In this document: positions 538 to 19,023 of the stretch, piece after piece | How positions within the stretch are numbered: the stretch's first letter is position 1 | How the letters are laid out: each line of letters begins with the position of its first letter | Source of the DNA: a virus | Length of the DNA stretch: 20,331 nucleotides | Direction: 5' to 3' (one strand) | IMG/VR virus record: IMGVR_UViG_3300031565_000486 | Coordinates: 1 to 20,331 of that record | Notes under the pieces: model-generated | The model's input: only the letters and a program-made list of their open reading frames with translations | The model's database searches: none | What the model was told of the DNA's origin: nothing | Program-made: the position numbers and the translations under genes

Positions 538-801
538 ATGGAAATTAAGGATTGTGCAGTATTTAGTTTAGAAAAAGAAGATAAGAAAGACGATGATTTG
601 CTTATTGCGGTTTTTCCAAATGAAGAGTCAGATGATGGTTTCGTTATAAGTCTTAAAGAACTTTGTCTTTTTGAAATTCGTTCTTCTAAAATTTTTGATG
701 GAACAATGGAAAAGGAAGACATCTTAGAATTAGAAGGCGTTTCAAGGAAACTCAAATTATTAGCAAAAATCATTGATGATGAAATCGAAAAAAAATTGTA
801 A
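538..801 (+). CDS. Small acidic protein of unknown function between terS and terL
   Basis: An 87-aa protein I do not recognise. It is rich in Asp, Glu and Lys, with many phenylalanines and leucines, has no signal peptide or membrane segment, and ends in a helical, probably coiled region (LELEGVSRKLKLLAKIIDDEI). The start at ATG 538 is set by a strong AAGGAGGGG ribosome site at 525-533; the frame is open further upstream (from 466) but that part only overlaps terS in another frame. The coding sequence is clearly more AT-rich than terS and the terL exteins, which suggests later acquisition. Its last 26 bases overlap the start of terL in another frame. It could be a small packaging accessory factor or an unrelated cargo gene; the sequence does not decide. 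Confidence 0.7.
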   Translation: MEIKDCAVFSLEKEDKKDDDLLIAVFPNEESDDGFVISLKELCLFEIRSSKIFDGTMEKEDILELEGVSRKLKLLAKIIDDEIEKKL

Positions 802-3800
802 GCCTAAACCTAAAAACGGCGTAACGCAAGAGGATATTGACCGGATAGAATCCATCGTCAAGGGATATATGGCTGATGTGAAGTCCGGTAAGGTGTTAGC
901 TTGCAGGTTCGTTAAGTTAGCAGTTGATCGCCAAGAGAGAGACTTAAAAGAGGGTCCAGCGCGAAGCCTGGAATTTAATAAATATATGGCAGCTCGGGCC
1001 GTTAAGTTCTTCTCATTCCTGAAATTGTGGAAGGGCAAGGAATACAAGGGAAAAGAATTTATCCTTGGGCCGCATCGTGCCTTTTTTACTTGGGTTTTGA
1101 TGGGGTGGTACCGCGCAGACGGGACTCGACGCTTTAGGATGGCCTATGATGAGGAAGCTAGGAAGGGTGCGAAAGCCGAATGGATTGAAAACGAGATCCC
1201 AACACCAGATGGATTCAAAAGAATGGCCGATATTCACCCCGGCGATTATGTTTTTGGTTCTTCTGGAAAGCCCATAATGGTGATCGATGAGACAGAGACC
1301 ATGAACGGCAAAGACTGCATGGCTGTTTCCTTTTCTACTGGGGAAAAGATAATCGTCTCAGAAAATCATTTATGGGAGGTAAACAGAAATATTGAGCCGG
1401 AAAATAATCACCGAACATGGACACAAGAGGAAGATGGATTAATAAGACGAAAATATCCAACGGGCGGGTTGAACGCGCTTCAAGGGAAATTGCCGCACAG
1501 AAGCCGTTATGCGATAGCAAAAAGGACAGAATCCCTTGGTATTAAAAAGAAAGATGGGTGCCATAACAGAAGTATTGCCAAACTTAATGTCCCAAGAGTT
1601 TTTTCAATGCCAGAACCGCCAAGAGTTCTTAGCACAAGGATCATCTCAGAGACTTTAAGATATGGATCAAGACAAGATCTTCGGTATTCAATAAATGTTG
1701 CACCTGCCATTATAACGGAATCAAAAGCATTGCCAATCCCCCCATATTTTCTTGGTGTATGGCTGGGCGATGGTGAGAGTAAATCATCAAGAATAACTAT
1801 CGGATATGAAGATCTTGCCATTATTGAAAGGATAAGAGAAGAGGGACTCCTGGTAGAAGAAAGGAAGTCAAGCAATGTTGGCAGTGGGTTGTTTTATGTT
1901 CATACCGGTGACAAGAAAGCAAATATTAGGGGAAGATTGAACGCAATAGGGGTACTCAGCAATAAACATATTCCCCGAATGTATTTTCGCGCTGAATATA
2001 ATCAGCGGATCACGTTGCTCAACGGACTTATGGATTCAGATGGTCATGCGGATAAGCGCGGTCATTGCTCTTTCACTAATTGCAATAAAACGTTAGCGCA
2101 TAATGTCATGGAATTGTTGGCTACGCTTGGGATTAAGGCAACAATAAATGCACGGATGGCTAAATTGTATGGTCGTTGCATCCGAGATGCTTATAAAGTT
2201 GATTTTGTTCCCGCAGCTGGGATACAGATTTTTAATCTCAAGCGGAAGCAAGACAAAATTAAAGCACGAACAAAAAAAACTCGATTTGATACTAGAATGA
2301 TAACGTCTGTTGAATGCGTTCCGTCTGTTCCGGTAAGGTGCATAACCGTTGATTCCCCAGATGGACTATATCTTACTGGCAAGAGCTTTATTCCAACTCA
2401 CAATAGCACTTATGCCGGGGGCCTTGGTTCATACTTTTTTGTCGCTGATGGGGAGCAAGGTGCGGAAATATATTGTGCTGCAGTAAAGCGAGAGCAGGCC
2501 CGTATAGTCTGGCAAAATATCAAAAATCTTCTCAAGACTTCTGGGTTTGCTGATAAAGTTACATTTCTGACACATAATCTATCAATTGAATCAACAAATT
2601 CAAAGTGTGAACCGCTTGCCAGCGATTCAAAAAGCCTTGATGGACTCGATACCCATTTCGCCAGCCTTGATGAACTCCATGCACATCCGACACGAGAAGT
2701 TTATGACCTTATAGTTGATTCTATCGGCGCTCGTTCACAACCCCTTATCCTGATTATCACCACCTCCGGCTTTAACCAGACCGGGATATGTTATGAGATG
2801 CGAGAATATCTAACGCAAATTCTGAAGAATACGATCCAGGATGATTCATTTTTCGGGATTATCTTTACCCTGGACACCAAAAAGGACTGGCCGGATCTCA
2901 AAGATAAGAAAGAGAAGCTCAGGAAAGGCCAGCAGAGAGAAGACGACTGGACAAATGAAGATGTTTGGGTAAAGGCGGCTCCCGGGCTCCTCGGCATAAC
3001 AGAAAGTGGAAAGCGATTCGGGATTGACGACAAAGGACAGCCGATACCGGGCTACATGACAAAACTAGAAGATATGAGAGATAAGTGCCGGATCGCAAAG
3101 CAGATGCCGAGTGCCCAGAATAACTTCTTGACTAAAAGATTGAACATTTGGTGTGTCATTGGTTCAACCTTGATTCTCATGGCTGACGGCTCACGAAAAA
3201 GGGCGGATGCGGTAAAGATTGGTGACTTGATTGTCAGTTTCGATGAGAAAACCCGAAAACTGAAGCGCTCGAAAATAACAGGGGTATATGACAATGGCGT
3301 TCATGATGTAGTAACAATAACGACCGTTCGGGGCCGGGAAATTACAACTACGTTAAATCATCCATTTTGGACAAGGACCGATAGATGGAGGCGAGAAAAA
3401 AGCGATTGGATTCTTGCCGGAAATCTTAAAATGGGTGACAAAATAGGAGTTGCTTTAAATTACCAAACTAAAGAGGGGGGAAGGCGTTTAAATAGAGAGA
3501 AAGCTCAATTTATTGGGATAATGGTTGGGGATGGTAGTTGCCATACAATGCCACGGCTTACGAATACCGATAGCGGAGTAATTGAATTTTGTTCTAAATT
3601 TGCCAAAAAGAATAAATGCACACTTGACCCTTTGCCAGATGGGTATCATTGGGATTTTCACCATGCGGATAAAGTGGCGAAGTCGCTTAAAATGAAACCT
3701 ATAAAAAGATTACTGAAGAAATATAGAGTATGGGGAAAAGATGATAGCACAAAGAGAGTACCCGATGCTATTTTTAAGGGAGGACGGCCTGCCTGGATAG

Positions 3801-4954
3801 GGTTTCTATCGGGCTATATTGATACGGATGGGCACATAGCGAAAACAGGAATTATAATCGCTAGTTGCAATAAAGAACTGCTCATGGATTGTCAAGACCT
3901 GATCGCACTTTTAGGGGCGCAATCCATCGTTAAGCAGATTCAGGGTGGAACTTATCACCTTGGAATCTTTGATAGTAAAAGCCTAAAGCTTATGGCCAAG
4001 TTGTTAACCCTTTCTCATACAAAGAAAAACCGAGAATTAGAAAAGTTTAGGGGGTTTATTCTCAGTTATGATTATGCCACCAATTTTGATGCGATCAAAA
4101 GTATCAAATATCCTGGCCAGACCGCGACTATAGGAATTGAGATTGAGGACACTCATACACATATCACAAACGGGTTGATTACTCATAATACCCAGCAAGA
4201 AAACAGGTGGTTAGATCTTGCCCTTTGGGATCAGAATAATATCCGGCCTGTAACCGAGGCAACCTGCGCCAGCCGTACTTGTTACGGTGGCATTGACCTT
4301 TCTGCCGTGTCCGACCTTACCGTCTGGGTAATGCTATTCCCGGATACTGAAGATAAAGACCTGCTTGACATCTTGATCCGGGTATGGTGCCCGGAGGCGC
4401 GGCTATTTGATACCAGAAACAAATACCGCGAGCAATACCAGGCATGGAAGAAACGGGGATACCTGATTACCACAGAAGGCGATGCTATGGATTACGATTT
4501 TATCCGAGCGCAGATCGCTGGATCCACCGATAAGGATGGAAAATATGTGCCGGGAGATAAAGACCGATTTGACATACAGAGCATTTCCGTTGACCGCGGC
4601 TTTCAAGGGTATGAGTTTTCGCAAAAGCTAGATCAGGAGCTTGGTGGTGATGAGAAGAACCCGAAGGTTATCGCTTGTGGTATGGGATGGGTCTCAATGA
4701 ATGGCCCGTGCCAGGAGGTTGAAAGGCTATTGCTATTGAAGAAGTTAAACCATGGCGGCAACCCTATCCTCCGGTGGATGGCCGATAACGTAGCAGTAAA
4801 AATCAATCCCACTGGTGGCGGGAAGTCACCGAATAAAGCTACCAGCCAGGGCAAGATAGATGGAATCATCGGGATCCTGCTCGGGCTGGATAGGAAGCTG
4901 AGGATAAGAGAAGAGACCGGCAACATCTATGACCAATATAACCTTGTAAGGTAA
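776..4954 (+). CDS. terL: Terminase large subunit (Terminase_1/HK97 type) precursor with two inteins
   Basis: This is the packaging motor ATPase and headful/cos nuclease, made as a 1392-aa precursor. Removing the two inteins (residues 134-543 and 793-1138) leaves a 636-aa protein typical of Terminase_1. The rejoined P-loop reads EEARKGAK/STYAGGLG; Walker B is FASLDELHAH with Asp-Glu near nt 2669; ITTSGFNQTG follows as the coupling motif. The nuclease half starts after NFLTKRLNIW/TQQENRWLDL and has the acidic motif YGGIDLSAVSDLT, SVDRGFQGYEF and a C-terminal KIDGIIGILLGL. TTG at 773 is followed by ATG at 776 and 779; I take 776, but the ribosome site is weak (AGGAA, more than 20 nt upstream) and translation may be coupled to the overlapping upstream gene. 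Without both splicing reactions neither the ATP site nor the ATPase-nuclease linker would be intact, so packaging should depend on splicing. Confidence 0.95.
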   Translation: MMKSKKNCKPKPKNGVTQEDIDRIESIVKGYMADVKSGKVLACRFVKLAVDRQERDLKEGPARSLEFNKYMAARAVKFFSFLKLWKGKEYKGKEFILGPHRAFFTWVLMGWYRADGTRRFRMAYDEEARKGAKAEWIENEIPTPDGFKRMADIHPGDYVFGSSGKPIMVIDETETMNGKDCMAVSFSTGEKIIVSENHLWEVNRNIEPENNHRTWTQEEDGLIRRKYPTGGLNALQGKLPHRSRYAIAKRTESLGIKKKDGCHNRSIAKLNVPRVFSMPEPPRVLSTRIISETLRYGSRQDLRYSINVAPAIITESKALPIPPYFLGVWLGDGESKSSRITIGYEDLAIIERIREEGLLVEERKSSNVGSGLFYVHTGDKKANIRGRLNAIGVLSNKHIPRMYFRAEYNQRITLLNGLMDSDGHADKRGHCSFTNCNKTLAHNVMELLATLGIKATINARMAKLYGRCIRDAYKVDFVPAAGIQIFNLKRKQDKIKARTKKTRFDTRMITSVECVPSVPVRCITVDSPDGLYLTGKSFIPTHNSTYAGGLGSYFFVADGEQGAEIYCAAVKREQARIVWQNIKNLLKTSGFADKVTFLTHNLSIESTNSKCEPLASDSKSLDGLDTHFASLDELHAHPTREVYDLIVDSIGARSQPLILIITTSGFNQTGICYEMREYLTQILKNTIQDDSFFGIIFTLDTKKDWPDLKDKKEKLRKGQQREDDWTNEDVWVKAAPGLLGITESGKRFGIDDKGQPIPGYMTKLEDMRDKCRIAKQMPSAQNNFLTKRLNIWCVIGSTLILMADGSRKRADAVKIGDLIVSFDEKTRKLKRSKITGVYDNGVHDVVTITTVRGREITTTLNHPFWTRTDRWRREKSDWILAGNLKMGDKIGVALNYQTKEGGRRLNREKAQFIGIMVGDGSCHTMPRLTNTDSGVIEFCSKFAKKNKCTLDPLPDGYHWDFHHADKVAKSLKMKPIKRLLKKYRVWGKDDSTKRVPDAIFKGGRPAWIGFLSGYIDTDGHIAKTGIIIASCNKELLMDCQDLIALLGAQSIVKQIQGGTYHLGIFDSKSLKLMAKLLTLSHTKKNRELEKFRGFILSYDYATNFDAIKSIKYPGQTATIGIEIEDTHTHITNGLITHNTQQENRWLDLALWDQNNIRPVTEATCASRTCYGGIDLSAVSDLTVWVMLFPDTEDKDLLDILIRVWCPEARLFDTRNKYREQYQAWKKRGYLITTEGDAMDYDFIRAQIAGSTDKDGKYVPGDKDRFDIQSISVDRGFQGYEFSQKLDQELGGDEKNPKVIACGMGWVSMNGPCQEVERLLLLKKLNHGGNPILRWMADNVAVKINPTGGGKSPNKATSQGKIDGIIGILLGLDRKLRIREETGNIYDQYNLVR
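1175..2404 (+). mobile_element. Intein 1 in the terL P-loop: class 3 intein with SANT-like insert and LAGLIDADG endonuclease
   Basis: A 410-aa protein-splicing element between Lys and Ser of the Walker A motif (ARKGAK/ST). It begins AEWIENEIPTPDGF, so residue 1 is Ala, not Cys or Ser. It has the class 3 'WCT' set: Trp67 in block B (SENHLWEV), Cys389 in block F (VRCITVDS) and Thr408 in block G, followed by His409-Asn410, with Ser as +1. In class 3 inteins the block F Cys does the first attack, so the missing Cys1 does not mean it is dead. Between block B and the nuclease, nt about 1412-1549 encode a Myb/SANT-like DNA-binding segment (WTQEEDGLIRRKYPTGG, then LPHRSRYAIAKR). The homing nuclease has both LAGLIDADG helices with acidic residues kept: FLGVWLGDGE and LLNGLMDSDGH. 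The block is somewhat AT-richer than the exteins, as expected for a mobile insert. Confidence 0.93.
3152..4189 (+). mobile_element. Intein 2 at the terL ATPase/nuclease boundary: class 1 intein with LAGLIDADG endonuclease
   Basis: A 346-aa element between Trp792 and Thr1139 of the precursor (RLNIW/TQQENRW). It follows class 1 rules: Cys1 in block A (CVIGSTLILMADG), a block B TxxH in TTTLNHPFW with His70, block F IGIEIEDTHTHI, and a C-terminal Thr344-His345-Asn346 followed by Thr +1. The central homing endonuclease has two intact LAGLIDADG motifs, FIGIMVGDGS and FLSGYIDTDGH, so nuclease activity is plausible. The two inteins share only general family features and use different chemistry, so they look like independent invasions, not a duplication. 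Exact ends follow from reconstructing the conserved terminase junctions. Confidence 0.95.
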
Positions 4955-5282: not shown

Positions 5283-5453
5283 ATGAGTAAACTCTCAGGT
5301 TCAATTAAATCTATTCTAGGGGTGCGGGAAGTTTTAATGATTATAGGCCTTGGCTTAGTTGCCTATGGCTTATATCTCTTTGTGCCATGGGTATCATACT
5401 CTGTGACCGGCTGCTTTTTGATGGCAGGCGGTTTTTTTTTAAGGGATGAGTGA
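5283..5453 (+). CDS. Small two-helix membrane protein upstream of the portal gene
   Basis: A 56-aa protein with a short basic N-terminus (MSKLSGSIKSILGVREV) and two adjoining hydrophobic stretches (LMIIGLGLVAYGLYLFVPW and VTGCFLMAGGFFL), ending in RDE. ATG 5283 is preceded by AAGGG about 11-12 nt upstream. Its stop (5451-5453) overlaps the portal ATG (5453) by one base, so it is probably translationally coupled to the portal gene. Small hydrophobic genes at this site are common in phages, but I cannot assign a function; a holin-like role is possible but unsupported. A terminator-like hairpin lies inside its 3' end, so its translation may affect transcription into the portal gene. Confidence 0.75.
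   Translation: MSKLSGSIKSILGVREVLMIIGLGLVAYGLYLFVPWVSYSVTGCFLMAGGFFLRDE
5407..5440 (+). terminator. Terminator-like hairpin plus T9 inside the end of the small membrane protein gene
   Basis: CCGGCTGC (5407-5414) pairs with GCAGGCGG (5424-5431) over 7 of 8 positions (one G-G mismatch), with a 9-nt loop, and is followed at once by nine T (5432-5440). This is the layout of an intrinsic terminator, yet it lies within a coding frame and upstream of the portal gene. It may limit readthrough from terL or act as a translation-sensitive attenuator. It could also be just the coding of a Gly-Gly-Phe-Phe stretch. Confidence 0.5.
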
Positions 5454-6733
5454 TGGGCTTTTTGCGCGGACTACGGCCAAAAGCCATGGACAGCGACGAA
5501 CTCGCCAGACTTATCGGCTCGGTTTATGGCGGTGGATCCACCTCGACAGGGATTTCCGTTAATACCGATTCGGCGATGAGAGCGATAAGCGTCCATACCT
5601 GCGTGAAGGCGAAGTCGAACGGTATCAGGATGATGCCTTGTCATCTTATGCAGAAGATGGAGACCGGCATTGATGGTATTCAAAACGTAAGGCAGGCAAC
5701 GGAGCATAATGTTTACCGCTTGCTACATGACCAGCCAAACAGTTGGATGACGCCCGCCGAATTTTGGGGGATGGCATCGGCTTGCTTGGATCTCCGGGGT
5801 AATTTCTTCGCATTTAAAAGCGGTTTACCCAATCGCTCAGTGAGAGAACTTATCCCCCTGGCCATCGGATCAGTAGAGGAAGTTATCCAGACCCCTGATT
5901 ATGGTCTATTTTACAAAGTCAGGCGACCAACCGCTGATAGTGGAACCATTGACATCATTCCCGGTAACCGGATTATGCATATACGTGGACTTACTTTAGA
6001 TGGTTTTATGGGTTTGAATCCTATCGCTTATGCTAGGGAGAGCATTGGCTTAGAGCTAGCTACCGAGAAGCACGGCGCAAAGCTATTCGGCCATGGGACT
6101 ATGATCGGCGGGGTTTTAACTATGCCGCACGGTCAATTCTTCAAAGATCGTGATCAAGCAAAGAAATTTCTGGATGATTTTAACGATACTTATTCCTCAG
6201 TCGAAAATGCTCATCGAACTGCCCTCCTCGAAAACGGAGTGACTTGGGCAAAGATGGCAATGACTTCGGTTGATAGCCAATTTCTTGAAGCTCGCCGTTT
6301 TCAGCATCGGCAGATAGTTGACCTCTTTTTTAGCATCCCCTTATCGATCATGACTTCAGAAGACAAGACGGCGACATTTGCCAGCTCTGAGCAATTCAGC
6401 ATCGCGTATGTGATCTATGCTCTTATGCCTTATATCGTCAATATTGAGCAGGCGATTTATAGGGATTTGCTGACAGAAGAGGAAAAAGAAACGAAAAGCT
6501 ATTATGCGAAATTTGAAGCGCGAGCACTTCTCCGAGGATCATTCAAGGAACAGATGGATAGCTTCTCTATCGCAATTGATAAAGAGATTTTCAATCCAAA
6601 TGAAGTACGGGCGCTCCTTGAATATAACCCATATCTTGGCGGGCAGATCTATCGCACTAGGACTAGCACAACCAAAGATACCGGGAAAGAGGCTAATGGG
6701 CGACCGAAAATCGTGCCAAAGGCGGAAGGATAG
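5453..6733 (+). CDS. Portal protein (HK97-type, phage_portal family)
   Basis: The 426-aa dodecameric portal forms the single capsid vertex through which DNA is packaged and to which neck and tail attach. Family marks are the N-terminal GISVNTDSAMRAISVHTCVK block, LMQKMETG then HNVYRLLHDQPNSWMT, a WGMASACLDLRGNFFAF segment, IMHIRGLTLDGFMGLNPI (the loop where HK97-type portals read i.Hi....dg..G.SPi), and the late SIPLSIMTSEDKTATFASSEQF region. Length fits the family. I place the start at ATG 5453, not GTG 5450, because the TGATG overlap with the preceding gene gives coupling and AAGGGATG is 7-12 nt upstream. The Lys/Glu-rich C-terminus is normal. The gene lies immediately before the prohead protease, the classic order. 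Confidence 0.95.
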   Translation: MGFLRGLRPKAMDSDELARLIGSVYGGGSTSTGISVNTDSAMRAISVHTCVKAKSNGIRMMPCHLMQKMETGIDGIQNVRQATEHNVYRLLHDQPNSWMTPAEFWGMASACLDLRGNFFAFKSGLPNRSVRELIPLAIGSVEEVIQTPDYGLFYKVRRPTADSGTIDIIPGNRIMHIRGLTLDGFMGLNPIAYARESIGLELATEKHGAKLFGHGTMIGGVLTMPHGQFFKDRDQAKKFLDDFNDTYSSVENAHRTALLENGVTWAKMAMTSVDSQFLEARRFQHRQIVDLFFSIPLSIMTSEDKTATFASSEQFSIAYVIYALMPYIVNIEQAIYRDLLTEEEKETKSYYAKFEARALLRGSFKEQMDSFSIAIDKEIFNPNEVRALLEYNPYLGGQIYRTRTSTTKDTGKEANGRPKIVPKAEG

Positions 6734-6778: not shown

Positions 6779-7612
6779 ATGAAACTGGCATATCGAAATA
6801 AAAAAAACGCGCGTGCTATTTCTGCTTTCTGGGGGAAATCATTAGACAAACCTGATTGGTATTCAATCAAATCGCTCTCTGAAGATGAAGCGGAGATTTT
6901 AATCTATGGTGTAATAGGCTTTCCTTTCAATGATGCCGGAGAAATTGTTCGGACCCTTGCAGAAATGAATCAGAAAACCATCTTGATTCGGATTAACTCA
7001 CCTGGCGGAGATGTTTTTGATAGTGTCGCCATTTTTAATGTTTTGCAATCTCACAAGTCGAAAATCATCACCCGTATTGAATCACTTGCAGCCTCTTCTG
7101 CTTCATTTATTGCCCTAGCTGGTAAAGAAGTCCAGGCCTATAAAAATGCGATGATGATGATCCATAATCCCTGGGTTTTTGCTATAGGGGATCAAAATGA
7201 TTTGCGGGATATAGCTGATGTATTAGAGAAAATCTCCGGAAACATGGTGGATATTTATTCTGATAATTCAAGCGTTGGCAAAAAAGAAATCAAGGAAATG
7301 ATGAAGGCCGAGACCTGGATGACTGCTAAGGAGGCCAAAGAAAAAGGATTCATTGATACGATCCTAGACGGCAAGGGGGCCAAGGCCCAGTTTGACTTGT
7401 CGATGTTCGCCAATGCCCCGGAGGATTTCCGAGGCGAGGAACACGAGATAACTGAAAGAGAATTAGAAAAAGAACTGCAGAAAATGGGAATTTCTCAAAG
7501 CAGGGCAAAACGCATGATTTCTATCGGTAAGGATGACGAAGAAAACAATATCAATGAAATTGCAGCTCAACTTAAAAAAGCCACTTCAATCCTTAGAGGA
7601 GAAAAGAATTGA
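6779..7612 (+). CDS. ClpP-like prohead (capsid maturation) protease
   Basis: A 277-aa serine protease of the ClpP/crotonase fold, expected to trim the capsid protein's N-terminal delta domain and itself during maturation. Core motifs: INSPGGDVFDS (the Gly-Gly turn), LAASSASFIALAG with nucleophile Ser106 (or Ser107), and MMMIHNPW with His129; an Asp after about residue 150 should complete the triad. ATG 6779 has GAGGAGG 8-9 nt upstream. After the catalytic domain a charged tail carries a motif ELEKELQKMGISQSRAK (nt 7460-7510) that recurs in the next two genes. The stop overlaps the next gene's start (ATTGA-type 4-nt overlap, 7609-7612). Confidence 0.92.
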   Translation: MKLAYRNKKNARAISAFWGKSLDKPDWYSIKSLSEDEAEILIYGVIGFPFNDAGEIVRTLAEMNQKTILIRINSPGGDVFDSVAIFNVLQSHKSKIITRIESLAASSASFIALAGKEVQAYKNAMMMIHNPWVFAIGDQNDLRDIADVLEKISGNMVDIYSDNSSVGKKEIKEMMKAETWMTAKEAKEKGFIDTILDGKGAKAQFDLSMFANAPEDFRGEEHEITERELEKELQKMGISQSRAKRMISIGKDDEENNINEIAAQLKKATSILRGEKN

Positions 7613-8151
7613 TTTATTTTTTGTCCATTTTAGACAGCGAATTTATAAAGATAGGATTTACAAGCCAAGATATAGAGAGAAGAAAATCAGCTCTTCAAAC
7701 GGGCAATTCGTACGAAATCCATATACTGCATACCACTGATGGATCAATGCAAGAAGAAAAAGAAATACATAGATGCCTGAAAGAAGTTTTTGAAAGATTG
7801 CAAGTATTTAATAATCCAATAAATGAATGGTATCCGGGAAACAATCCGATTATCAAAACATTTATAGGTAATGTCAAGAATCATGGAATTGCTTATTCAC
7901 TTGAAAATCTCAACAGTATTGTACGATGGGACTTAAGAATTAAAGAGGATCAGATTTTTACAGTAAGGCATCTTGAGAGGTGTTTGCGCAGAAACGGCCT
8001 ATCTAGGGGAGAGGCAAAAACATTAATTTCAAAAAGCAAAGTCGAGTTAAACGATCTCTTTGTTTTGAATACAGGAAGGCAATCTGGCACAGATGATAAG
8101 CCACAAAATATAGGCCGCACAGTGATTTTAAGGAAAGCGCAAAATGCGTAA
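7609..8151 (+). CDS. GIY-YIG nuclease domain protein (T5orf172/MUG113-like) within the capsid operon
   Basis: A 180-aa protein. Residues 1-85 match the T5orf172 subset of GIY-YIG nucleases: MIYFLSILDSEFIKIGFTSQ gives the IY...IKIG core, then IERRKSALQTGNSY, an EEKEIHRCLKE helix and a closing NEWYPG. Such genes in phage structural operons are usually free-standing homing endonucleases. It starts with TTG at 7609 overlapping the protease stop, with GAGGAGAA just upstream, and is AT-richer than its neighbours, as an invader would be. The C-terminal half is not part of the nuclease; it includes HLERCLRRNGLSRGEAK (nt 7969-8019), matching the tail motif of the protease and the following small protein. 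That may be a captured piece of the capsid operon or a DNA-binding helix pair. Activity is not provable from sequence. Confidence 0.82.
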   Translation: MIYFLSILDSEFIKIGFTSQDIERRKSALQTGNSYEIHILHTTDGSMQEEKEIHRCLKEVFERLQVFNNPINEWYPGNNPIIKTFIGNVKNHGIAYSLENLNSIVRWDLRIKEDQIFTVRHLERCLRRNGLSRGEAKTLISKSKVELNDLFVLNTGRQSGTDDKPQNIGRTVILRKAQNA

Positions 8152-8169
8152 TACAATGACGGTCAAATT

Positions 8170-8361
8170 ATGATGATGACCAGTTTTGATATTGAAAGAA
8201 TCCTTAGGGACGCTGGTGCTCCTAAGGCATTCGCGAGAGCGGTAGCGGCGGCATGCCGTGCCGCAGGGTTATTTGATCGGTGTCAAGCCGACATAGACCT
8301 AGAGATTGAAGAGCTGAAAAACATACTAACATCGATCATATCGAAAATTAAGGAGGAATAA
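8170..8361 (+). CDS. Small helical protein carrying the protease-tail motif, just before the capsid gene
   Basis: A 63-aa (or 61-aa) protein with three stacked possible ATG starts at 8170, 8173 and 8176. It opens with FDIERILRDAGAPKAFARAV, a version of the LExxLRxxGxSxxxA motif in the tails of the protease and the GIY-YIG protein, and ends in an acidic helix (IDLEIEELKNILTSIISKI). The stop at 8359-8361 overlaps the capsid ATG (TAATG). Because the motif normally sits at the end of prohead proteases in related phages (from memory of the family), this may be a detached protease tail or small scaffold-like factor. No catalytic residues are visible. Confidence 0.75.
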   Translation: MMMTSFDIERILRDAGAPKAFARAVAAACRAAGLFDRCQADIDLEIEELKNILTSIISKIKEE

Positions 8362-9572
8362 TGATGGAGGAATTAAAGAGACTTATAGAAGCCATGGGAA
8401 GGGCATTCGAGGAATTTAAAATGGCCAATGATGCCCGGATCAAGGCAATCGAAGCTAAAGGCCATGCAGATCCGCTTCTAGTGGAGAAGGTCGAAAGGAT
8501 CAATGCGGACCTTACGGCAATGTCTGCCATGAAACAACAATTAGAAGCACTAGAAACCATTGTGGCTCGCGGGCAGTTTCCCGGAGGCGGAGTGCCGAAT
8601 CAGGATGCCGTCAATAGAGTTAAGGCATTTAATCACCTCATGCGGAAAGGCGGCAAAAGTATCAAGGATCTTGATATTCAAGCAGCAGCCTCAACACTTT
8701 CAGATCCCGATGGCGGATTTACCGTACCGGAAGAAGTCGAGACAGCAATTGACCGTGTTGCAAAAATCGTATCTGCAATGCGGAGACTTTGTACTGTACG
8801 GCCAATATCAACAGATACCTATCGTAAGCTCGTCAATCAGGGTGGAGCGACTTCTGGGTGGGTAGCAGAGAAGGCATCTAGGGCAGCAACTACGACCCCG
8901 ACCCTTGCTGAAATCTCAATTAATACGAAAGAGGTTTATGCCATGCCAGCAGCCACGCAATCACTTCTGGATGATAGTGCCATTGATATCGGTCAATGGT
9001 TAGCTGACGAGGTCTCTATTGAGTTCACCGAAGAAGAAGGTGATGCTTTCATCACCGGCACTGGAGTTTCAGAGCCCAAGGGCATAGCCGCCTATACAAT
9101 GGTTGCTAATGCCTCCTATGCTTGGGGTAGCGTTGGTTATATTGCCGGGGGTCATGCTTCGCTGCTTAATAATGCAGATAAGCTGATTGACCTTCAGCAT
9201 GCGCTGAAACCCGTTTATCGCGGAGGTTCCGCATTTCTGATGAATGATTTGACAATGGCAGTTGTTAGAAAATTCAAGGATGGTGAGGGGAACTATCTCT
9301 GGAGGCCAGGTCTTGAGCAAGGCGCACCTGATACGCTATTGGGAAAGCCGGTCGAGATCGATGACAATGTTGCCGATATCGGTGCAGGTAAATATCCGGT
9401 CTTCTTTGCGAACTTCAAGCGAGCGTACATGATTATCGACAGGATTGGGATACGGGTTTTGAGAGATCCCTATACCAGCAAACCGTTCGTCCTCTTCTAT
9501 ACCACCAAAAAAGTTGGCGGCGGAATAGTCCACTATGAGGCGATTAAGGCTCTCAAGATTGCTACAACCTAA
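8361..9572 (+). CDS. Major capsid protein, HK97 fold
   Basis: A 403-aa shell protein of the phage_capsid family. Residues 1-72 form a charged coiled-coil (EELKRLIEAMGRAFEEFK onward), the HK97 delta domain that acts as internal scaffold and is cut off by the protease. The fold proper starts around residue 110 (STLSDPDGGFTVPEEVETAI), followed by TSGWVAEKAS, PTLAEISINTKEVYAMPAAT, an FITGTGVSEPKGIAAY loop and the C-terminal GKPVEIDDNV/IDRIGIRVLRDPY/GGGIVHYEAIKALK blocks typical of this family. ATG occurs at 8361 and 8364; AGGAGG at 8351-8356 is 4 and 7 nt away, so 8364 may be the real start. The maturation cleavage site probably lies between residues 72 and 110. Confidence 0.96.
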   Translation: MMEELKRLIEAMGRAFEEFKMANDARIKAIEAKGHADPLLVEKVERINADLTAMSAMKQQLEALETIVARGQFPGGGVPNQDAVNRVKAFNHLMRKGGKSIKDLDIQAAASTLSDPDGGFTVPEEVETAIDRVAKIVSAMRRLCTVRPISTDTYRKLVNQGGATSGWVAEKASRAATTTPTLAEISINTKEVYAMPAATQSLLDDSAIDIGQWLADEVSIEFTEEEGDAFITGTGVSEPKGIAAYTMVANASYAWGSVGYIAGGHASLLNNADKLIDLQHALKPVYRGGSAFLMNDLTMAVVRKFKDGEGNYLWRPGLEQGAPDTLLGKPVEIDDNVADIGAGKYPVFFANFKRAYMIIDRIGIRVLRDPYTSKPFVLFYTTKKVGGGIVHYEAIKALKIATT

Positions 9573-18157: not shown

Positions 18158-18361
18158 ATGGAAAAAGCTCTTTCACAAATCACCCGCGCAGAATGGATTG
18201 CTATTAACTGGATTGAGATTGATCCGGTAATGGGTGGTGACAGCGGTGACAGAGTATTTATGGGTAACAACAAAAGAACGCCGGATGAGGCAGCGGAAGC
18301 GGCCATGGATTGGGATTCAACGATAGAGGAAAGAGAAGAATTTCAAGGCGTAGAGTTATGA
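18158..18361 (+). CDS. Small acidic protein of unknown function
   Basis: A 67-aa acidic protein (EKALSQITRAEWIAINWIEI at the N-terminus, then a Gly/Asp/Asn-rich linker and an EAAEAAMDWDSTIEEREEF helix). AAGGAAA precedes ATG 18158. Its TGA overlaps the methyltransferase ATG (ATGA), so it is coupled to the modification genes, not clearly to the tail genes. I do not recognise the family. Confidence 0.6.
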   Translation: MEKALSQITRAEWIAINWIEIDPVMGGDSGDRVFMGNNKRTPDEAAEAAMDWDSTIEEREEFQGVEL

Positions 18362-19023
18362 AAAATAAAAATATCATAGTAGCTCGGAACTTAATCAGAT
18401 GCCTCGACCTCGACAGCCTCCGAAACGCAGAAGTTGTGGCAAATCTCGTGCGCTGTTTCGGGATTGTCGCATGGCCGCAGTCAACCGGCCCGGAAATGCA
18501 GTTCATTGTTCCTGTAGGAATAGCACAGACTCCCCAGCAGATCGCCAAGGCCCTTGTCTATGTGAGCCAATTTAAGATCACTTCATTCTGTGAGATCGGC
18601 GTCATGCACGGCGGAAATTTTCTTTTCTGTTCGGAATATCTCCGGCGATTCAACTCAAATATTCGATGTATAGGCATTGATCCGGCGGATTGTCTTGACC
18701 CGGAGATCCGGGAGATTATCGAAAAAGAGGTATGGTTGAGTTTCAAACCTTCCACAAGCGATGACATCGCGGGTATGATCTTCGATCTCATCTTCATTGA
18801 CGGAGATCACACAATGCCCTGGCTCGTGAGGGACTGGGAGAATGTCGGGCGGCTTTCAAAGATATGCGCTTTTCATGACCTACAGGAGCCTACGTGTCCC
18901 GACGTGGCGGTATTTTGGGAAATACTAAACGGTGAAAATAAAGAGAAGTTTGAATTTCTTGACGATCCATCTGGGCGCAAGATACATGGGATCGGGATTA
19001 TTCATGCAAAAGGAATCGAATGA
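18358..19023 (+). CDS. Class I SAM-dependent methyltransferase
   Basis: A 221-aa protein with the Rossmann methyltransferase motifs in order: motif I CEIGVMHGGNF (Glu79, Gly81, Gly85-Gly86), the acidic end of strand 2 in CIGIDPAD (Asp108), and DLIFIDGDHTMPWLVRDW (Asp148, Asp150, His151), a form typical of Methyltransf_24-like enzymes that act on small molecules or sugars rather than DNA. No DPPY-type DNA methylase motif is visible. ATG 18358 overlaps the upstream stop; a longer frame from 18310 overlaps that gene and is rejected. The ATGA overlap with the next gene, a glycosyltransferase-like protein, suggests both work on the same product, possibly a glycan. Confidence 0.82.
   Translation: MKNKNIIVARNLIRCLDLDSLRNAEVVANLVRCFGIVAWPQSTGPEMQFIVPVGIAQTPQQIAKALVYVSQFKITSFCEIGVMHGGNFLFCSEYLRRFNSNIRCIGIDPADCLDPEIREIIEKEVWLSFKPSTSDDIAGMIFDLIFIDGDHTMPWLVRDWENVGRLSKICAFHDLQEPTCPDVAVFWEILNGENKEKFEFLDDPSGRKIHGIGIIHAKGIE

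Follow-up and report, generated by a model that had tools for sequence, protein, structure and literature searches.

Gene content of the head module

The window, which is the whole stretch of DNA that was analysed, comprises 20,331 bases of a virus record and contains a head module whose genes occur in the order terminase, portal, S14 protease, GIY-YIG protein, 63-aa protein and capsid protein. The portal protein (5450..6733, plus strand, as are all features below; Pfam Phage_portal 6e-79) is followed by a prohead protease of 277 aa (6779..7612) that matches Pfam CLP_protease (2.6e-33), a PHROG of head maturation proteases (1e-65) and the NCBIfam model Clp_rel_HeadMat. This protein belongs to the S14 proteases, having a ClpP fold domain of the phage head-maturation subfamily, a portal gene upstream and a capsid gene downstream. 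Its catalytic body covers approximately residues 1-215, and the remainder includes a C-terminal tail (7451..7609) composed of the motif TERELEKELQKMGISQSRAKRMIS and a terminal helix, as delineated by sequence comparison and by the helices of AlphaFold models.

The following gene (7609..8151) encodes a GIY-YIG nuclease of the MUG113/T5orf172 type (Pfam MUG113 1.4e-6, 29.2 bits for a cut-off of 22.3) in which the conserved residues Y3, K14, G16, T18, R25, E50 and E73 are in place; it is a probable homing endonuclease. The gene has a low GC content (0.32), it begins with a TTG that overlaps the stop codon of the protease gene (TTGA) and has a GGAG upstream, and it looks translationally coupled to the protease. 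Within its C-terminus, the protease-tail motif occurs as TVRHLERCLRRNGLSRGEAKTLISK (7960..8034; 26.5 bits with the outside profile described below). The AlphaFold model of this protein (mean pLDDT 62) is too poor to reveal the fold: its confident part is limited to the tail hairpin (helices 119-128 and 133-142), the alignment having contained tail rows, and a fold search with the model returned no usable match. Relatives of the nuclease among viral contigs were limited to a near-identical contig and one distant protein. The near-identical contig (IMGVR_UViG_3300031539_000949, hereafter L082) is the same as the window over 3,409 bases from 7950 onward and displays a 160-bp deletion, corresponding to 7790-7949, that breaks the GIY-YIG frame; either an intact nuclease is dispensable in this genome or the contig is misassembled. 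According to PMC10448857, T5orf172/MUG113 homing genes are frequent close to capsid genes; the nuclease of the window shares domain family and location with the phage genes described there, and differs from them in carrying a protease tail.

The third gene (8170..8361) encodes a predicted protein of 63 aa that corresponds to a free-standing protease tail, with motif and terminal helix (35 bits with the outside profile). Its ribosome-binding site appears weak by eye, and BLAST-like searches found relatives in the near-identical contig only. It is directly followed by the gene of an HK97-type major capsid protein (8361..9572; Pfam Phage_capsid 2e-83) that begins with an N-terminal delta/scaffold-like helical region.

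Other features of the window lie outside this set of genes. The large terminase ORF (773-4954, 1393 aa) contains two intein-like insertions, located ahead of, and between, the ATPase and nuclease domains, with matches to LAGLIDADG-type homing endonuclease and intein-splicing models (PF14528 twice, PF14890 and PF05204); by eye, the first begins with an alanine inside the Walker A region (GAK|AEW...HN|S). A methyltransferase-like gene (18310-19023; Methyltransf_24, 2e-6) is found downstream of the head-tail genes.

Three homologous copies of a prohead protease tail

The earlier note had aligned one segment from each of the three consecutive genes without gaps, and this alignment was confirmed. 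The 17-mers concerned are located at 7460-7510 (protease residues 228-244), 7969-8019 (GIY-YIG residues 121-137) and 8188-8238 (residues 7-23 of the 63-aa protein), with 7, 4 and 6 identities between pairs. They form the best-scoring ungapped triple across the three whole proteins, with a sum of pairs of 78 compared to 45 +/- 6 for shuffled proteins, of which none out of 200 reached 78. Further evidence came from a profile comparison, also proposed beforehand, that was made with an outside profile of 30 columns built from the tails of 20 proteases from other phages, the window being left out, and scanned over 12,021 six-frame ORFs. Similarity was significant for the 63-aa protein (E=4e-9) and for the GIY-YIG tail (E=2.5e-6), at 35.3 and 26.5 bits respectively, when the maximum observed in 4,000 antisense windows of 840 nt was 10.6 bits. 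The tail of the window's own protease is the weakest of the three copies (12 bits, E=0.07 over the same 12,021 ORFs), so that conservation runs opposite to expectation, the bona fide protease having the poorest match; its homology is indicated by its position and by full-length alignment with relatives, from which it is only more diverged. The three segments are homologous, and the resemblance runs past the 17 residues: the 63-aa protein represents an entire tail, terminal helix included, as does the protease C-terminus, whereas the GIY-YIG protein has the motif alone.

The motif corresponds to the tail that HK97-type prohead proteases have at their C-terminus. In the C-termini of relatives it takes the form xTxRxxEKALRDAGxSRxxAKA, followed by a linker and a short terminal helix, and its predicted shape is a helix-turn-helix hairpin with a C-terminal helix. 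The AlphaFold model of the window protease, based on 33 aligned proteases, places a tail helix at 226-235, then a turn and a long helix at 240-272, with pLDDT values of ca. 75-88 for the hairpin. The search of prohead protease C-termini that had been suggested revealed the same tail in two protease families of unrelated sequence, the S14/ClpP-like and the S78 proteases, HK97 gp4 being among the latter. A consensus query derived from S14 tails matched cultured phages having S78 proteases, as confirmed by Pfam and by reading their C-termini, and the first collection of distinct motif-bearing ORFs comprised 70 of the S78 and 24 of the S14 family. In HK97 gp4 the motif, TIRDVENWLRDSVGLTKSQAVGLIARF, is found at residues 166-195 of 225, followed by a sequence able to form a terminal helix and immediately upstream of the capsid gene; a search with the HK97 tail also reached the protease of Azospirillum phage Cd, another carrier of the motif. 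HK97 nevertheless differs from the window in that the tail is present on its S78 protease only, while in the window it is found on an S14 protease, a nuclease and a free-standing 63-aa protein. The curated models matching these proteases (Pfam S78, TIGR01543 and Clp_rel_HeadMat) stop short of the tail, and phrog_22327, a family of 74 aa and unknown function, matches S78 tails with values up to 5e-40, its matches to the GIY-YIG tail and to the 63-aa protein being weak.

Elsewhere the tail is restricted to prohead proteases. Contigs were scanned with a synthetic two-motif query, and 139 of the 140 tail loci have a capsid gene downstream, 135 of them within 120 nt. In a bacterial sample of 1,149 genomes (385 + 395 + 369, gathered through alphaproteobacterial, Syntrophaceae and gammaproteobacterial centres), all matches of at least 23 bits were prohead proteases, the best non-protease scoring 17.4 bits. 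With the exception of this phage and of a relic in contig L004 (see below), every confident carrier found in these searches is a prohead protease encoded immediately upstream of the major capsid gene. If the window and its near-copies are set aside, the few ORFs initially classed as "other" amount to L194, with the near-identical L195 and L196, which is S78 by Pfam, and L197, which Pfam left unclassified. The S78 proteases L194-L196 are ca. 430 aa long and contain a long insertion, with a weak Hva1_TUDOR match, ahead of the tail motif.

The protease-capsid junction and the probable origin of the extra copies

Close relatives have no more than about 80 nt between the stop of the protease gene and the start of the capsid gene. 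The two genes are 749 nt apart in the window and 835 nt apart in L004, these being the only two known cases of insertion at this junction, and a nuclease gene is present in both. In L004, where the stretch concerned is 3826-4656, the nuclease gene is of another type, HNH/endonuclease-VII-like (PHROG 2.8e-17), and is followed by a decayed second tail of 34 codons, MEKADVFLRDAGYRRRGNRSIAAQIKKNKAILGG, that starts with an ATG at 4551 and sits directly before the capsid gene; the score of this second tail is matched by one of the 4,000 null windows and is weak on its own. The occurrence of two nuclease families at one junction, each with a second tail after it, suggests a common process. No intron match was found in the window with Rfam, and an intron or spliced gene was rejected on this basis.

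The composition of the window changes across the junction, GC falling to 0.33-0.38 over ca. 7500-8200 and rising again to 0.48 at the 63-aa gene, whose own GC content of 0.46 resembles that of the capsid gene. The 63-aa gene sits where the protease tail ends in relatives, immediately upstream of the capsid start, and its tail is of the ASRxFA subtype seen in L260, L261, L259, L263, L002 and L256, the first five of which have the closest tails. The tail that the protease itself carries has the subtype found in L003, L004 and L005, unlike the tails of the nearest relatives of the protease. The two tails share 24% identity (score 23) and are less alike than either is to those of nearly all relatives listed. 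The 63-aa gene is probably the orphaned native 3' end of the protease gene, as judged from its sequence and location. The "foreign" subtype of the tail on the protease does not prove replacement, since protease bodies of this clade have exchanged tails even where no endonuclease is present: L262 and L263 have the same tail motif and different terminal segments, the end of L263 matching that of L005. Rank correlations between body and tail are about equal for the orphan (0.34) and for the own tail (0.33), although the best matches fit a pattern of displaced and inserted tails.

Because the corresponding genes abut in relatives, the cassette is low in GC, the 63-aa tail is native-like and L004 offers a second, independent case, the extra copies are read here as traces of homing insertion. 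On balance, the motif being a protease tail, we consider it probable that it serves to bring the protease into the growing prohead and that its extra copies derive from the insertion of a GIY-YIG homing cassette with replacement of the tail. According to this scenario, a GIY-YIG homing-endonuclease cassette would have entered between the protease and capsid genes. The incoming DNA would have provided both a replacement 3' end for the protease gene and a nuclease fused to a further copy of the tail, and the native tail would have been left stranded as the 63-aa gene ahead of the capsid start. The copy internal to the GIY-YIG protein would call for an additional step, such as read-through into a tail stranded earlier.

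Mobile ORFs of fungal mitochondria present the same layout, with a core gene, an inserted C-terminus, an endonuclease ORF and a displaced native C-terminus, as documented for Allomyces atp6 and for Glomus atp6, atp9, cox2 and nad3 (PMC3630166). An in-phase inserted C-terminus, an endonuclease and a displaced native C-terminus are found in this arrangement in the window and in L004. Differences from the fungal cases are that the gene concerned is a phage structural gene, that the native tail forms an ORF of its own from start to stop, that an extra copy of the tail is fused to the nuclease and that homing is putative in the window. The locus may represent, in a phage, the kind of C-terminal replacement driven by endonucleases that has been described for fungal mitochondria, and may also be a natural example of a targeting tail on a protein other than a protease.

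Proposed capsid targeting and alternative readings

Duda, Oh and Hendrix (2013) reportedly showed that fusions to C-terminal fragments of HK97 gp4 enter proheads, and assigned a putative capsid-targeting signal to the last fifth of this protein; the tail motif of gp4 overlaps the segment reported to be responsible for this targeting. For phage SPN3US, a similar role has been proposed, in independent work, for the C-terminal propeptide of the protease (PMC7411985). On these two grounds, the docking tag for the procapsid that the earlier note had put forward is well founded for the protease, and the distribution of the tail over S14 and S78 proteases, its location next to the capsid gene and its presence in HK97 gp4 all support it; docking of the nuclease and of the 63-aa protein is hypothetical. 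In HK97-type prohead proteases the tail is very probably a capsid-targeting domain, and it would have this function in the present phage. Co-variation between the tail and the N-terminal delta region of the capsid protein gave no signal beyond that of the protease body (Mantel partial 0.02-0.10). The presence of one tail on both S14 and S78 proteases turns a shared dock into a testable question, and the tail offers a simple rule, based on sequence, for recognising proteins that are sent into heads of the HK97 type.

Among other explanations for the extra copies, the one that survives best, although rather unlikely, is that the tails have been kept by selection as docking tags, the nuclease being a prohead cargo and the 63-aa protein a small scaffold, adaptor or competitor. 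The prohead targeting that the tail module reportedly confers in HK97 (Duda 2013) counts in its favour, together with the fact that the 63-aa ORF spans the full tail domain and retains most of the key residues and that the GIY-YIG gene, which overlaps the protease stop, looks translationally coupled. There is also precedent in the internal proteins of T4 and in DarB of P1, which are packaged by means of targeting tags (PMC9024508); these tags resemble the tail in being short and transferable and in directing proteins into the head, and differ in being N-terminal and of other sequence whereas the tail of the window is C-terminal. This explanation is opposed by the broken GIY-YIG frame of L082, which keeps all else of the window that it covers, by the weak ribosome-binding site of the 63-aa gene and by the finding of no other tailed nuclease or small protein in the 1,149 sampled genomes or in the tail search of viral contigs. 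In a more specific form, a homing nuclease would have acquired the prohead-targeting tail, been packed in the head and been delivered with the DNA, while the 63-aa protein would tune the entry of cargo or protease. Such a packaged nuclease is possible, the chain of events as a whole being improbable, and insertion by homing with tail replacement is the best reading of the extra copies. If the nuclease is packaged, it would cut the genomes of competing phages or spread its own gene.

A similarly low probability is given to a tandem duplication, inside this phage, of the 3' end of the protease gene, followed by divergence and without homing. Three homologous tails following each other in one operon are what this process would leave, but the tail of the 63-aa protein differs in subtype from that of the protease, each is closer to tails of other phages than to the other, and nuclease genes are found at both known insertions. 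The repeated copying of one sequence that the earlier note had envisaged was right in spirit and does not hold as simple tandem copying given the different subtypes, their 24% identity and the anatomy of the cassette.

It is more improbable still that the hairpin is a nucleic-acid-binding helix-turn-helix or SAP-like element serving the nuclease, with a merely convergent likeness to protease tails. The helix-turn-helix shape of the predicted structures fits this view, and the hairpin pattern resembles that of SAP domains, but no SAP or HTH profile of Pfam matched P0001, P0002 or P0005 at E<=1, the tail is absent from the other T5orf172-type proteins that were compared, and the residue-level match to protease tails is far beyond chance. 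Finally, the possibility that short helices are alike by chance, which segments so short, charged and rich in alanine and leucine might raise, was rejected as next to nil given the shuffled proteins, a profile made without the window, and null windows none of which exceeded 10.6 bits.
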